Shown one piece after another: positions 1 through 5,295 of a DNA stretch of 24,877 nucleotides. The translations under genes were made by a program, and so were the position numbers. Origin of the DNA: a virus; IMG/VR virus record IMGVR_UViG_3300037119_001754, positions 1 to 24,877 of that record; one strand, given 5' to 3'. Every line of letters starts with the position of its first letter. The first letter of the stretch is position 1. The notes beneath the pieces are model-generated. The model was not told the origin of the DNA. It did not search any database and saw only the letters and a program-made list of their open reading frames with translations.

Positions 1-34
1 GAAGGAAGTTGTCGTCGAGCTTGAACCACGACAT
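1..34 (-). CDS. Partial CDS, probable phage replication/DNA-binding protein N-terminus
   Basis: Only the first eleven codons are present before the window edge. They read MSWFKLDDNFL from an ATG at position 34. This opening resembles the conserved start of many phage and plasmid replication or helix-turn-helix proteins in actinobacteria (typically MSWFKVDD-like followed by a short His-Pro motif), but that match is from memory. The gene would follow recT and the strong hairpin at 72-111 in the same direction. An overlapping ATG in another frame (about position 38) gives a different short reading. The family resemblance of the chosen frame is the only reason to prefer it. Confidence 0.45.
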   Translation of the reverse strand, partial: MSWFKLDDNFL

Positions 35-71
35 GCGTCATCGGTCGCTCTCGTCGTCGAGGGACAGAGCA

Positions 72-111
72 GCAGCCGGCGACGGGCATGGCGACACCCG
101 TCGCCGGCTGC
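72..111. terminator. Perfect 15-bp GC-rich hairpin after recT
   Basis: Positions 72-86 (GCAGCCGGCGACGGG) and 97-111 (CCCGTCGCCGGCTGC) are exact reverse complements separated by a 10-base loop. The hairpin lies about 65 bases past the recT stop codon and before the next start, where an operon terminator is expected. Neither side carries a clear T-run. It therefore fits the U-tract-poor hairpin terminators common in actinobacteria, or an RNA-processing or stabilising element. Confidence 0.6.
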
Positions 112-177
112 CTGGTTGTGATCCGGCGGGATCACTCTGCGCAAGCATGCCGCCGCTACGGCACGCATCACGGCAGA

Positions 178-978
178 TCATGTCGGATCATCCTTGGCCT
201 CGGCGACCCACGCCTCGTCGTCGTCGAGCGGTGCCGGCTCGGGCTCGGCCGCGGGTAGCTCTGGCTGCTCGGGATCGAGGTCGCGGACGTCGACCACGCT
301 GCCGTCCGCGCCCTGCGCGACGACGAGCTGCGGCATCGGCGGCAGCCAGCGGCGCATGTCGAGCACCACGCTCTTCAGCGCCATCGCGTCGTATGACCGC
401 TTCCACGCGTCGCCGTCGCGCTGCTTGCTAAACGAGCGGTGGTACTCGACGTCCTCACGTGTCAGCGAGTGCGTGCGCTGCTTGCCGTCTGGGTACTCGA
501 TGCGCACCCACCACGCCCGTGCGGGCCCGCCACGGTCACGCGGTGGCCGGCGGGCGTGGGCAGGGACGTGGCGGAACTTGCCGCTGCCCATCTCGTGCTC
601 GAACGTGTCATTGGGGTAGACGGGCGCGCCGTCGAAGATCGTGCCTGGCATCGCACGCCGTGCCAGTTCCATCACGCCTCCGTAGCCGAGCTGGAACGTC
701 GCCGTGCGCCCGTAGGGCAGGATCCACGCGAGGTTATTCCCGTCGTTCGGCGGCAGCCCTAACTGGGCGCAGCGCAGCGCTGCGCCGAGCACGGTCTCAG
801 GGTCGCAGTCCCACAGCTTGGGCGTGACGCGCATGGCGTTGGCGATCTGGGCGACGAACGTCTCGGTCGAGATGTCGGTGCGGGCGAGCAGCTTGGTCAC
901 GACTGGCTTGTAGCGGTTGAGCAGGTCGACGACCACTGCCTGCGGGCGCGGCTTGGCCGGCGCGGTGGATGGGCTCAT
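178..978 (-). CDS. recT: RecT-family single-strand annealing protein
   Basis: This 266-aa protein is a RecT-type recombinase that anneals single-stranded DNA onto homologous targets. Recognition rests on the N-terminal block with the VLGAALRCAQLGL region (about residues 63-75), then a LAWILPYG...FQLGYGG block (about 83-101). Both are typical of phage and bacterial RecT proteins. The C-terminal 40 residues are acidic and proline-rich, as in many RecT tails. The ATG at 978 overlaps the stop of the upstream exonuclease gene by four bases (ATGA), which fixes the start and couples translation. With YqaJ it forms an exonuclease/annealase pair like lambda Red or Rac RecET. A strong hairpin follows downstream. 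Confidence 0.93.
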   Translation of the reverse strand: MSPSTAPAKPRPQAVVVDLLNRYKPVVTKLLARTDISTETFVAQIANAMRVTPKLWDCDPETVLGAALRCAQLGLPPNDGNNLAWILPYGRTATFQLGYGGVMELARRAMPGTIFDGAPVYPNDTFEHEMGSGKFRHVPAHARRPPRDRGGPARAWWVRIEYPDGKQRTHSLTREDVEYHRSFSKQRDGDAWKRSYDAMALKSVVLDMRRWLPPMPQLVVAQGADGSVVDVRDLDPEQPELPAAEPEPAPLDDDEAWVAEAKDDPT

Positions 979-1982
979 GGCAGGTACTCCCCATGCAGAC
1001 GCAGCACGCGAGTCGTGCTGATGCGGTCGTAGCGGTCGCCGTGGTCTGCGCGCACGGCCTTGGCGTCGACGTCGGTGCGCGACTGGGCCCGCCACGAGGC
1101 GGCGAGCCGGCCGTCGATCGTCCCCTCAGACAGCGCCGCTCCGTCTGGTAGGTCGACGTCGAGGCCGGCTCGCACGAAGGCGTCGCGCAGCGTCGTCTCG
1201 CGAAACTTGATCAGCTTGGTCTTGGCGGCGACGTCACGCTTGAGGTCGCACAACTCGGTGGCGACGTCGACGAGGTCGTCGAGGGCGACCGTCGGCACCT
1301 CGGCCGTGTCGACGTGCCCCCACGTCGAGGTGATCGCCTCGGCTGTCTTCGGGTGGTCGTCTGGCGGTGGTGGCGTGACCTTGCCGTTGAGCGACGGTAT
1401 GACGTAGTCGTTCCAGAACGTCTCGGCGACGTCGACCAGCTCTGCTTGGCGCTCGGCGTCGGCTGCGACCTCGAAGATGCTGAAGCGAGGCCGACCGTAG
1501 GGGAACTGCAGCGCGGCGACCCACGCCTGCGTGTAGCCGGTCACGTGGAGCTGCCACTGCACCTGCGCGACGTAGTGCTCGGGCAGCGCGTCCCACGCCT
1601 GCGACGTGTACTTGGCCTCGAACACGCCGAGCGCGCTGCCGATGTAGTCATCCTCGGGTGAGTCGAGTACGAATCCATCCACTGTGGCGAAGTGGTGCGG
1701 CATGCGCAGATGGCGCACGAGCGTCTGCTCGCCGGCAACGGTGAGGCCCGTCTCACGCTCGAACCATGCGCCGATGACGGGCTCGAGGTCGGCACCGAGG
1801 CGCATGCTCGGCGTCCAGTCGTCGGGCCCGTCGTCGGGTGACAGGCCGACCTTGGAGACCCAGACCGACCACGGCGACGCCCACGGCGAGATCCCGGCGA
1901 CGCCGGCTATGTCCGAGCCGCCGATGCCGCTGCGACGCTCGTCGAGCCAGGCGGCACGGTCGGCGATGGCCGTGGACGTCAT
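975..1982 (-). CDS. YqaJ-type viral recombinase exonuclease
   Basis: This 335-aa protein belongs to the YqaJ/lambda-exonuclease fold of PD-(D/E)XK nucleases. It would resect double-stranded ends to supply ssDNA to the adjacent RecT. The N-terminal IGGSDIAGVAGISPW motif (residues 20-34) is the usual YqaJ start. Catalytic candidates are E67, D102 in TVDGFV, and E122/K124 in FEAKYTS. The conserved helix with YVAQVQWQLHVTG (138-149) follows. The C-terminal half is a helical extension of about 130 residues. The ATG at 1982 overlaps the upstream stop as ATGA, and the gene's own stop overlaps the recT start in the same way, so the pair is tightly co-translated. Confidence 0.92.
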   Translation of the reverse strand: MTSTAIADRAAWLDERRSGIGGSDIAGVAGISPWASPWSVWVSKVGLSPDDGPDDWTPSMRLGADLEPVIGAWFERETGLTVAGEQTLVRHLRMPHHFATVDGFVLDSPEDDYIGSALGVFEAKYTSQAWDALPEHYVAQVQWQLHVTGYTQAWVAALQFPYGRPRFSIFEVAADAERQAELVDVAETFWNDYVIPSLNGKVTPPPPDDHPKTAEAITSTWGHVDTAEVPTVALDDLVDVATELCDLKRDVAAKTKLIKFRETTLRDAFVRAGLDVDLPDGAALSEGTIDGRLAASWRAQSRTDVDAKAVRADHGDRYDRISTTRVLRLHGEYLP

Positions 1983-2452
1983 GCCAGCGCCCGAGTCGGC
2001 AGTTCAGCGAGCGGTAGCAGCGCCGACTGCGGCACCATGAAGCACGGATACGGCACGCGCTCGGACCAGTAGCACGACTGCCTGCCGTCGCGGCCGAGGA
2101 TCCAGCCAGGGATGCGGAAGGTGGGCACGTCGGCGATGACGAGCACGAACGCGGCGTCGTCGGAGTCGCTGTCGCGCAGACTCAGATGCCCGTTGTGATG
2201 CACGGTCGAGCGCACCTGATACGGGCCGACGTCGCCCGCGTAGTCGAGCGCAGGCGAGTCGGCCCAGTACAGCCCGAGCGCCTTGGCGACCGCCATCTCG
2301 GCAGCCGCAGCGATGACGTGGGTGCCCCATGGATCCTCGGGCGCGTAGACCCGATGAGCGGCGCGTCGTGCGAGCGCCCGCAGTTGGCGCTGGCAGCCGA
2401 CGTGTGCCGCCTGCTGTAACTCGGACCAGCAGAGCGTTACCTCGGTGGTCAC
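1979..2452 (-). CDS. PD-(D/E)XK-like phage protein of unknown role
   Basis: This is a 157-aa protein with no name I can give securely. The middle carries an AAAEMAVAKALGLYW helix (E52), a GDVG element (D74), a strand ending YQVRST (78-83), and a hydrophobic strand AFVLVIADV (101-109) followed by GWILGRDG. That order matches a compact PD-(D/E)XK nuclease-like fold of a type common in phages, although Q79-V-R81 replaces the usual ExK. It may therefore be catalytically altered or only structurally related. The GTG at 2452 overlaps the previous stop as GTGA, which decides the start. It sits between small early genes and the YqaJ/RecT pair, so a role in DNA processing is a reasonable inference. 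Confidence 0.72.
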   Translation of the reverse strand: MTTEVTLCWSELQQAAHVGCQRQLRALARRAAHRVYAPEDPWGTHVIAAAAEMAVAKALGLYWADSPALDYAGDVGPYQVRSTVHHNGHLSLRDSDSDDAAFVLVIADVPTFRIPGWILGRDGRQSCYWSERVPYPCFMVPQSALLPLAELPTRALA

Positions 2453-2670
2453 GAGCGCAGCCTCGGCAGCCTGCCTGCGATGCGGGCGAAGGCATGGCAG
2501 GGGCAGGGGCACGTGGCGAGCGTCCCGTCGTCGGTCGTGCGCCACGGTGGTGGTTCCTTGGCGACCTGCAGCGCGTCGGAGCGAGCCCACTCGATCCAGT
2601 TGGCATAGCCGTGCTCGGCTAGCCACGCTGATGTCAGGGCGCGCTTCTCCTCACAGTGGCTGCAGCGCAT
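2449..2670 (-). CDS. Small zinc-binding protein (CxxC ... CPCPCH)
   Basis: This 73-aa protein has C3-x2-C6 at its N-terminus and a CPCPCH cluster at residues 54-59, enough ligands for a small zinc-binding fold. Cys-rich proteins with a CPCPCH-like signature recur among early genes of actinobacterial phages (from memory), with no function known to me. The ATG at 2670 lies four bases after the upstream stop and is preceded by a GGTGA element. A GTG at 2682, overlapping the upstream gene by eight bases, would add MGDA in front. The stop overlaps the next gene as GTGA. Confidence 0.7.
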   Translation of the reverse strand: MRCSHCEEKRALTSAWLAEHGYANWIEWARSDALQVAKEPPPWRTTDDGTLATCPCPCHAFARIAGRLPRLRS

Positions 2671-2863: not shown

Positions 2864-3030
2864 GTTCCCGTCACCTCGCCACACGCGCAGACGTGCATGC
2901 TCCGATGGGTGTTGCCGACGATGCAGACGTGCTCGTGCGGGTCGCCGAGCGTCGTCCATCGCCACTCGCAGAGCGGCGTCATAACGGCACGCACGACGGC
3001 GTCGAGGTCGGGCTCGTCGTTCAAGCTCAC
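2860..3030 (-). CDS. Small Cys/His-rich protein
   Basis: This 56-aa protein has a C-terminal half rich in possible metal ligands: H32, H34, C36, H42, H46, C48 and C50 (ending MHVCACGEVTGT). The spacing suggests a small zinc-binding fold. The N-terminal part (NDEPDLDAVVRAVM) is acidic and helical. The GTG at 3030 overlaps the VRR-NUC stop as GTGA, and its own stop overlaps the following gene as GTGA. No function can be assigned. Confidence 0.65.
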   Translation of the reverse strand: MSLNDEPDLDAVVRAVMTPLCEWRWTTLGDPHEHVCIVGNTHRSMHVCACGEVTGT

Positions 3031-3428
3031 GATGGCCTTGCCTTGCCGAACGAGAGCGCGGCGACGATGTCGGGCCAGTCGTCGGGCGTCCACACGGCGG
3101 TATCAGCGCCCGACGTGGTGAGGCGCTGCTGCCACTGCTGCTGGCGGGCCGAGAGCTTGTTCCCTCGCGTCTTCAGCTCGCGGAACAGGACCGTGCCGCT
3201 CGGGTGGATGAGCAGCAGGTCGGGGAATCCCGCGGTGTCGTACCAGGCGCGGCCGGTCAGGTTGCCGCCGTAGTGGACGGCGAGCCAGTCGAAGCGGCGC
3301 GCCATGTCGACCACGGTGCGCTCGAAGTCGCGCTCGGCGACATTGGTCTGCTCGCGCGAGTCGGCACGGGCGAGCGCGCCGGCAAGAATGTGCTCGACGG
3401 CGTCGGCGTCGCGGTCGCGCGGGCTCAT
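3027..3428 (-). CDS. VRR-NUC domain nuclease
   Basis: This 133-aa protein is a stand-alone VRR-NUC domain, the compact PD-(D/E)XK nuclease found in many phages, where it is suspected of cutting DNA junctions or flaps. Visible catalytic elements are GFPDLLLIHPSG (D70) and the strand LFRELKTRGNKLSARQQQW, with E84, K86 and Q96. An N-terminal acidic helix (ERDFERTVVDMARRFDW) supplies the usual first glutamate. The length is typical for the phage form. The ATG at 3428 overlaps the stop of the upstream HTH gene as ATGA, so its translation probably depends on ribosomes finishing that gene. Confidence 0.9.
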   Translation of the reverse strand: MSPRDRDADAVEHILAGALARADSREQTNVAERDFERTVVDMARRFDWLAVHYGGNLTGRAWYDTAGFPDLLLIHPSGTVLFRELKTRGNKLSARQQQWQQRLTTSGADTAVWTPDDWPDIVAALSFGKARPS

Positions 3429-3660
3429 GCGACGACATCGTCAAGGTGCTGCGTGTGCCGCTCGATCATCGCCTCGATGTCGTCGGAGCGGATGAAGCTG
3501 CGCTGTCCGATCTTGACGAGGCGCAGCTCGCCGTCGTAGATGTGCTGGCGCAGCCAGCGCGGACTGATGTCGCCTAGCAGGCTGCAGGCGTCAGGGAAGC
3601 TGTGCAGTCGGACGGTCGGAGGAAGTCCCCCCCCCCCCCCTCAGTCGGCTCGCTGGTCAT
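3425..3660 (-). CDS. Excisionase-like HTH protein, frameshifted at a poly-G run
   Basis: The downstream frame, in sense orientation, encodes LHSFPDACSLLGDISPRWLR, then an IYDGELRLVKIGQRSF segment and IRSDDIEAMIERH. That pattern matches the MerR-like/HTH_17 excisionase family (helix, turn, wing, ending in a short helix). No standard start exists in this frame: the run of 14 G is directly preceded in frame by TGA. The good start, ATG at 3660 with GGGGGA eight bases upstream, is out of phase by one base. It terminates at a TAG (3574-3576) after 28 codons. A run of 15 (or 12) G would join them into a protein of about 78 aa. Its place next to integrase fits a recombination directionality factor. 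The stop overlaps the VRR-NUC start as ATGA. Confidence 0.75.
3627..3640. repeat. Homopolymer of 14 C (14 G on the coding strand)
   Basis: Fourteen consecutive C lie inside the eighth-codon region of the excisionase-like gene. With 14 bases the start codon and the HTH frame do not match; 12, 15 or 18 would match. Such tracts are prone both to slipped-strand mispairing in vivo and to length errors in sequencing. The sequence alone cannot separate the two. Confidence 0.9.
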
Positions 3661-3849
3661 TTCGGATTCCCCCAAGGTGTCGCGGCGGCGAACTTGCGGT
3701 TACCAGATCGTGCTGGTAGTAGCGCCAGTGTGCCAGTGCTCGCCTGTGGGCAACCAGGGGAGAGATCGGAATCTTCTGTGGACTAGTTGTGCTACCTGCT
3801 GTGAAATCTGGGGATAGTGCTGTCCACAGCGTGTGCGTAAACCCGCGTG
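3661..3849. promoter_or_regulatory. int-xis spacer with inverted repeats and DnaA-box-like sites
   Basis: This 189-bp non-coding spacer is visibly less GC-rich than the flanking genes. It holds an 8-bp inverted repeat, CTGTGGAC (3776-3783) and GTCCACAG (3822-3829). It also holds three sequences one mismatch from the actinobacterial DnaA box TTGTCCACA: the complement of 3745-3753, the complement around 3777-3785, and 3820-3828. GCCAGTG is repeated at 3724-3730 and 3732-3738. A GGGGGA ribosome-binding site for the excisionase-like gene lies at its left end. I could not find a convincing -35/-10 pair. It may carry the promoter and protein-binding sites that control excision. Confidence 0.45.
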
Positions 3850-3858
3850 CTACCTGCT
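3789..3858. repeat. 12-bp direct repeat spanning the integrase stop
   Basis: GTGCTACCTGCT occurs at 3789-3800 and again at 3847-3858, with 58 bp between starts. The second copy covers the integrase stop codon. The spacing and location suggest a protein-binding site or a relic of local duplication. Confidence 0.55.
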
Positions 3859-5028
3859 CAGGATCTGATCCATCGCCTCGGCGGCGTCGGCCCGTGCGGG
3901 TTCCATCAGGTGCCCGTAGACGTCGGCGGTGACGCGGATCGATGAGTGCCCGAGCATCTCCGAGACGGTCTTCAGCGGCACCTTGGCGGCGATCAGCAGC
4001 GACGCCGCTGAGTGGCGCAGCCCGTGCGGCGTCCAGCGCCCGACGCCGGCCGCGGCCGACAGGTCGGCGACGAGGCGTGTGACGCGGTCGAGGTCGCGGG
4101 GCGTGCCGGTGCCCGAGGTGAACACCATGTCGTCGAAGCGTGCGTCGCGCGCCCACTCGGGCCCGTAGACGGCGCGCTCGAGGGACTGCGCCTCGCGGTG
4201 GCGGCGCAGCACGGCGACGACGGCAGCGGGCAGCACGAGCGTGCGCCGGCTGCCCTTGGTCTTCGCCTGCTGCTCCCAGACATGCACGCCGCGGTCGCCC
4301 TTGACGAGCGTGCCCTGCACGGTCAGGCGTGGCGTGACGGCGTCGAGGTCGAGGTCGCGCCAGCGCAGCCCGAGCGCCTCGCCGCGGCGCAGGCCGAGCG
4401 CGAGCAGCACCATGACGAGCGCCGACTCGCCGACCGCGTCGGCGGCGTCGAGCAGGCGCTGCGCCTCGTCGACGGTCAGCGTCGTGCGCTCGGGTGGCGG
4501 GACGTTGACTCCATCGACGAGCGCGGCGACGTTGCGGTCGACGAATCCGTCGGCCTGGCCGACGCGCAGCGCGCGGCGCAGCACCGAACGGGCGAGGCGC
4601 ACAGTGTTCGGCGACAGGCCGCGCCGCGTCAGCGTGGCGATCATCTGGCGCACGTGGGCAGGCTCGAGCTTGGCGAGCTGCACGGCACCGATCGTCGGAT
4701 CGACGTAGAGACGGACGATGTCGGCGTAGTGCCGAGCCGTGCGCGGCTTGCCCTCGATGGCGACGACGTCGTCCAGCCAGTAGGTGAGGAAGCGTGAGAC
4801 GGTCATCGCCGCCGGCAGGTCTGGACTGGCGGCGACCACGGTCTTGAGGTCGTCGAGGCGTGCCGCCAGCTCGGCCTGCGTCTTGGCGACGACGGTGCGG
4901 TAGCGACGCCTGCCGGCATGGTCGTGCACGCTGACCTGACCGACGTAGCGCTGCCGGCGCTCGTCCCACCACGTCGAGCCCTCGCCGTTCGGCCGGCGGC
5001 GTTGCGTCTTGCTGCGGGAGTTAGTCAT
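3850..5028 (-). CDS. int: Tyrosine-family site-specific integrase
   Basis: This 392-aa phage integrase catalyses attP x attB recombination. An N-terminal arm-binding region (about 15-65, with GSTWWDERRQRYVGQVSV) is followed by a SAM-like core-binding domain (about 75-170) and the catalytic domain. Catalytic residues visible are R214 in GLRRGE, a lysine in QAKTKGS (K256 or K258), H335 and R338 in HGLRHS, H361 in LGHSS, and nucleophile Y371 in DVYGH. Length is normal. The ATG at 5028 lies inside one copy of the AGTTAGTCA repeat and follows a three-codon ORF. The closest AAGGGG element (5042-5047) is 13 bases away, which is unusually far. The neighbouring tRNA and repeats make this the attP side of the genome. 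Confidence 0.95.
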   Translation of the reverse strand: MTNSRSKTQRRRPNGEGSTWWDERRQRYVGQVSVHDHAGRRRYRTVVAKTQAELAARLDDLKTVVAASPDLPAAMTVSRFLTYWLDDVVAIEGKPRTARHYADIVRLYVDPTIGAVQLAKLEPAHVRQMIATLTRRGLSPNTVRLARSVLRRALRVGQADGFVDRNVAALVDGVNVPPPERTTLTVDEAQRLLDAADAVGESALVMVLLALGLRRGEALGLRWRDLDLDAVTPRLTVQGTLVKGDRGVHVWEQQAKTKGSRRTLVLPAAVVAVLRRHREAQSLERAVYGPEWARDARFDDMVFTSGTGTPRDLDRVTRLVADLSAAAGVGRWTPHGLRHSAASLLIAAKVPLKTVSEMLGHSSIRVTADVYGHLMEPARADAAEAMDQILSR

Positions 5029-5211: not shown

Positions 5212-5286
5212 CGGGCTGTGGCGCAGTCTGGTTAGCGCACTGGTCTGGGGGACCAGGGGTCGCGGGTTCGAGTCCCGCCAGCCCGA
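5212..5286 (+). tRNA. tRNA-Pro (anticodon GGG)
   Basis: The cloverleaf is complete. The acceptor stem pairs CGGGCTG (5212-5218) perfectly with CAGCCCG (5279-5285), with A5286 as discriminator. The D stem is GCGC/GCGC. The anticodon stem CTGGT/ACCAG encloses the loop CTGGGGG, giving T33 and anticodon GGG, which reads CCC proline codons. The T arm is GCGGG-TTCGAGT-CCCGC. The 3' CCA is not encoded (CCG follows). It lies between the integrase with its repeats and three plus-strand phage genes. It is either a functional phage tRNA or the attP core carried as a whole gene. Confidence 0.95.
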
Positions 5287-5295
5287 CCGTTGACC

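Follow-up and report, generated by a model that had tools for sequence, protein, structure and literature searches.

A Giles/Pukovnik-type excisionase gene, recorded out of frame at a run of 14 G, is best explained by a real, slip-prone tract present in mixed lengths, a reading that we favour tentatively and give slightly less than an even chance. The window analyzed, a 24,877-base IMG/VR virus record and not a host genome, would then be a contig holding one out-of-frame length. The N-terminal linker of the excisionase (RDF) would have turned into a long G tract that replication slippage alters by a base or so, and we infer that in-frame and out-of-frame genomes would coexist in the population. 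In-frame genomes would encode a Xis of 76-79 aa that contains a short Gly linker. Those out of frame would yield a 28-residue peptide and no efficient excision; in them, translational coupling into the adjoining VRR-NUC gene would be lost and expression of the recombination genes further downstream probably lowered as well. The first-pass annotation had framed the choice as "phase switch or sequencing error", a fair pair that omits -1 frameshifting or transcript slippage as well as plain slippage mutation. All of these are weighed below.

A G14 tract separates a start codon from an HTH coding frame

The elements around the tract all lie on the minus strand:

3669..3673, minus strand: Shine-Dalgarno-like GGGGG, 8 nt before ATG 3660 (upstream 25 nt, CCGCGACACCTTGGGGGAATCCGAA)
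3641..3660, minus strand: start codon (ATG) and opening codons of xis leading into the run, seven codons before G14
3627..3640, minus strand: G14 homopolymer as read in the letters; no other homopolymer in the 24,877-nt window reaches 8
3425..3628, minus strand: Xis/RDF winged-HTH coding frame, not in phase with ATG 3660 when the run has 14 G

The length of the G14 run is far beyond chance. All other G or C runs reach 6 at most, and 1.1e-4 runs of 14 or more are expected under a first-order Markov model of the window; as many G8 matches occurred in 0 of 100 shuffles. With 14 G, the ORF from ATG 3660 reads MTSEPTEGGGGDFLRPSDCTASLTPAAC* and stops after 28 codons. The conserved HTH frame is exactly -1 relative to that of ATG 3660, remains open to 3425 without an internal stop and is closed by a TGA directly before the run; a start of its own (ATG, GTG or TTG) was sought between the run and the HTH and none is present. 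The first-pass annotation had described this arrangement, from the ATG with GGGGG upstream to the startless HTH frame, and the letters bear it out. It had further proposed that 12, 15 or 18 G would restore a protein of about 78 aa, in agreement with the 76-79 aa that we computed for lengths divisible by 3, at which the two frames fuse. The region shares two features with contingency loci, a tract beyond chance within coding DNA and a tract length that decides the reading frame. The tract's placement close to the start of the ORF, behind a good Shine-Dalgarno sequence and ATG, is a frequent site for contingency tracts and favours the slip-prone tract.

The same geometry (GAG GGG GGG GGG GGG GAC) could serve productive frameshifting, whereby the ribosome slips at G GGG GGG, a slippery site in the ATG frame with the HTH frame at -1, or RNA polymerase adds a G, in either case giving a low set level of Xis. 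Phage tail-chaperone genes provide known cases of recoding by frameshift (PMC3711429). Here, however, the downstream RNA is not unusually structured (fold z -0.32) and offers no stimulatory structure, tract and frame change are not conserved among homologues, which are uninterrupted, and a run of 14 bases exceeds what a programmed site needs. We regard frameshifting as improbable.

The interrupted gene resembles excisionases of Giles and Pukovnik

Sequence and structure comparisons indicate that the HTH gene very likely encodes an Xis/RDF-type excisionase. Its protein matches PF12728 (HTH_17) in Pfam at 1.5e-7 and 32 bits, against a curated cut-off of 27, and the excisionase family phrog_1840 in PHROG at 1.6e-6; against TIGR01764, the excise model of NCBIfam, it scored 14.6 bits, below the cut-off of 28.8. 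The only matches among phage records were Giles-type genes, mostly annotated "excise", with Giles gp30 "excise" the best at 41% identity, and their adjoining integrases are about 31-32% identical to that of the window. An AF2 model of the HTH part (pLDDT 86) had Pukovnik Xis (4J2N) as its top Foldseek match in the PDB (E 7.8e-3, TM 0.63/0.77). Sequence match and winged-HTH fold are joined by an adjacent tyrosine integrase:

3850..5028, minus strand: tyrosine integrase, just upstream of xis (PF00589, 1.3e-23; phrog_1, 4.2e-68)

Taken together, these results uphold the earlier call of an excisionase-like gene. Further upstream, between the integrase and a divergent HTH region, lies a complete tRNA-Pro (GGG) gene (window 5212-5288, plus strand), which may mark an attachment site or be phage-borne.

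The closest layout was found in L156, where an integrase is likewise nearby and xis overlaps the next gene by ATGA. The L156 xis has 17 residues before the conserved Leu, matching the joined frame in the window. Since in-frame joining yields a protein roughly like that of the L156 xis in overall size and in the length of its N-terminus, ATG 3660 belongs to the HTH frame.

The excisionase gene is coupled to a recombination operon

Behind xis, seven genes overlap in series, beginning with VRR-NUC and ending with yqaJ and recT:

3027..3428, minus strand: VRR-NUC nuclease gene (PF08774, 2.7e-6), ATGA overlap with the xis stop
3030-2860, 2863-2675, 2682-2449 and 2452-1979, minus strand: four small overlapping ORFs between VRR-NUC and yqaJ, the last matching phrog_18407 at 9e-25
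975..1982, minus strand: YqaJ/RecE-like exonuclease (PF09588, 1.1e-22), ATGA overlap
178..978, minus strand: RecT annealing protein (PF03837, 7.4e-25), ATGA-coupled to yqaJ

The VRR-NUC start has no Shine-Dalgarno sequence of its own. The overlaps that follow are GTGA at 3030, GTGA at 2863, 8 nt at 2682, GTGA at 2452 and ATGA at 1982 (yqaJ) and 978 (recT); these coordinates confirm the ATGA coupling of xis to VRR-NUC and the chain of overlaps down to recT that had been proposed. It is plausible that an end of translation at codon 28 abolishes coupling into VRR-NUC and exerts polarity on the operon, as polarity is seen in the pilus operons of Bifidobacterium breve (PMC9187656).

Such coupling also enters a stronger proposal, an evolved poly-G switch in a phage RDF, in which tract length would set both excision and translation of the nuclease, RecE and RecT genes, at random for each genome, and the phage population would hedge between locked and releasable prophages. 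We consider this unlikely, and in the open-licence papers searched we found neither a phase-variable excisionase nor a simple-repeat switch of a phage life cycle. The fact that the operon genes behind xis are open counts for an ordinary slippage mutation, which would have knocked out xis in one phage or decaying prophage and become fixed in the sampled lineage. The out-of-frame state and the frequent slippage of runs in hosts of this kind (PMC10159617) point the same way, but a real run of 14 bases should mutate back about as readily as forward, and permanent loss would be unlikely. We give this explanation a slim chance.

The tract is absent from related loci

In Giles and L156 the xis gene reads through without interruption. 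G or C runs do not exceed 6 in any of the loci compared, namely those of Giles, ZM2, Gravaillia and L156 and those of four Gordonia phages that have similar HTH genes. On these comparisons the G tract is a peculiarity of the window's phage or of its lineage. According to the first-pass annotation, homologues lacking the tract and carrying an intact gene would reveal an assembly error. Such homologues do exist in Giles, Gravaillia and L156, but those directly compared are only 34-41% identical, so they indicate that the tract is not general to the xis family rather than proving an error.

Related genomes had also been suggested as a source of the same tract at variable length. No second copy was found in the viral or genome collections. 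The only near-identical contig, L025 (IMGVR_UViG_3300037071_001111), is 98.8% identical over window positions 11-2460 and ends about 1 kb short of xis; at the other side it reaches about 1.6 kb beyond the window's left end. Searches of IMG/VR by Xis protein, by integrase or by a 30-mer from the 3' end of xis returned no close relatives, and a pattern of at least 9 G with the HTH motif at the right distance had no match there.

Several other candidates were set aside. A looser pattern with 10 G gave two matches in the genome collection, neither of them similar to the window's xis by tblastn. VRR-NUC relatives (L005-L024, GC about 0.49) had no xis homologue and no long runs, a contig with a YqaJ 47% identical (L026) carried only a distant HTH_17 gene, and the plasmid matches were weak HTH proteins.

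Long G tracts in other phage contigs

We also scanned IMG/VR for G14; the counts that follow concern the matches listed and are not rates. Among these, many runs of 14 or more sit at contig ends, where they look like artefacts, and some are internal. The runs at ends count for a chimeric join, in which poly-G artefact reads would have fused two unrelated fragments at the run. In the window, however, integrase and xis stand side by side as in Giles and L156, the start site, the Shine-Dalgarno sequence and the length of the N-terminus suit the gene that follows the run, and tetranucleotide profiles are nearly as alike across the run (0.88-0.96) as within one side (0.92-0.97). A chimeric join is very improbable.

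The longest flanking frames were joined in frame in about a third of the internal runs among the matches listed, so an out-of-frame length alone says little. Some internal runs fall within recognizable genes. In at least three contigs, 85-90% identical, a tract occupies the same place in a C5 cytosine methyltransferase gene (PF00145), and a fourth contig has one at a different place:

L037:1452-1465: G14 in a C5 methyltransferase gene
L048:4846-4859: G14 in a C5 methyltransferase gene
L095:5323-5337: G15 in a C5 methyltransferase gene
L065:6688-6702: G15 in a C5 methyltransferase gene, at the different place, beside the PCQDIS motif

Behind the methyltransferase tracts two frames stay open, each leading to a different plausible C-terminus. 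Tract length could, from the sequence, switch the enzyme among an off state and two C-termini. The recurrence of the tract at one fixed place in L037, L048 and L095 suggests that phage genomes can carry genuine tracts of this kind, and it shows that phage genes do contain poly-G runs of about this length whose recorded lengths differ. In other contigs, a G15 disrupts the frame of a gene resembling N6/N4 DNA methyltransferases (L097:13592-13606), a G15 lies close to the C-terminal end of a phage antirepressor with a KilAC domain (PF03374), where the longest-open frame changes at the run (L107:371-385), and a C14/G14 stands just after a plus-strand ATG (ATGACCACCCC...) in a contig whose capsid is 42% identical to that of the window (L036:7291-7304), so that a related phage also has a tract where an ORF begins.

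Slippage in the likely host and the recorded tract length

The host is probably actinobacterial, judging by the xis and capsid matches in the phage collection, which are mycobacteriophages. Mycobacterial runs of only 7-9 nt already undergo shifts at 1e-5 to 1e-2 per CFU, and NucS repair leaves frameshifts uncorrected (PMC10159617). A G14 that is real and sits in an actinobacterial host should therefore occur at several lengths. A G11 tract of B. breve was found at mixed lengths even within a single colony (PMC9187656). Rather than being favoured by selection, the window's tract may simply have arisen by chance in a host whose mismatch repair does not correct indels.

Recorded lengths can be wrong. 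RefSeq held a minority length for a B. breve G-tract, and Illumina reads fail through G-tracts, a problem termed "G's end" (PMC9187656). These reports lend weight to a miscounted tract, in which the gene would be an ordinary in-frame one and short-read polymerase stutter or assembly would have given 14. The HTH frame is well kept, and the in-frame share of about a third seen among the internal IMG/VR runs is as if random, both of which suit a miscount. Even if the count is off by one or two, the tract remains long, slip-prone and absent from relatives. We judge a miscount rather unlikely, and still the most credible alternative to the slip-prone tract. Overall, the published work on mycobacteria and B. 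breve implies that the recorded 14 is not to be trusted to one base, yet that a real G14 should vary (PMC10159617, PMC9187656).

Significance and comparison with known systems

If real and variable, the tract would place a simple-sequence switch in a gene that decides the phage life cycle; those G-tract switches that we found in the literature act on bacterial genes for surface structures, modification or metabolism. Temperate phages whose hosts lack mismatch repair of indels would also gain a route to bet-hedging. If miscounted, it would illustrate that long G tracts in viral contigs conceal intact genes.

Among excisionases, Giles gp30 and Pukovnik Xis (4J2N) resemble the window's protein in being small winged-HTH proteins encoded beside a tyrosine integrase. 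The Giles xis has no G tract, is uninterrupted and diverges from int, whereas in the window both genes point the same way and xis is coupled to the recombination operon. The methyltransferase tracts of L037, L048 and L095 share with the window a G14-G15 run in phage coding DNA on whose length the frame depends; they differ in the gene affected and in that the position of the tract is kept in three contigs while its length differs.

Among bacterial systems, the sortase-pilus switch of B. breve (bbr_0113, bbr_1889; PMC9187656) offers several parallels. There too the G-tract lies in the first gene of an operon and two ORFs, the second of them startless, are joined at some lengths only; in this high-GC actinobacterium, in-frame versions give pili, and downstream genes suffer polarity when the tract is out of frame. 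In contrast to the window, which has a phage DNA-binding protein and one recorded tract length, the B. breve tracts affect chromosomal surface pilus genes and their length mixtures have been measured. Similarly, the contingency loci of Campylobacter, Neisseria and Helicobacter contain long coding poly-G/C tracts whose length sets the frame, but unlike the window they show demonstrated length variation and reside mostly in surface or restriction-modification genes.
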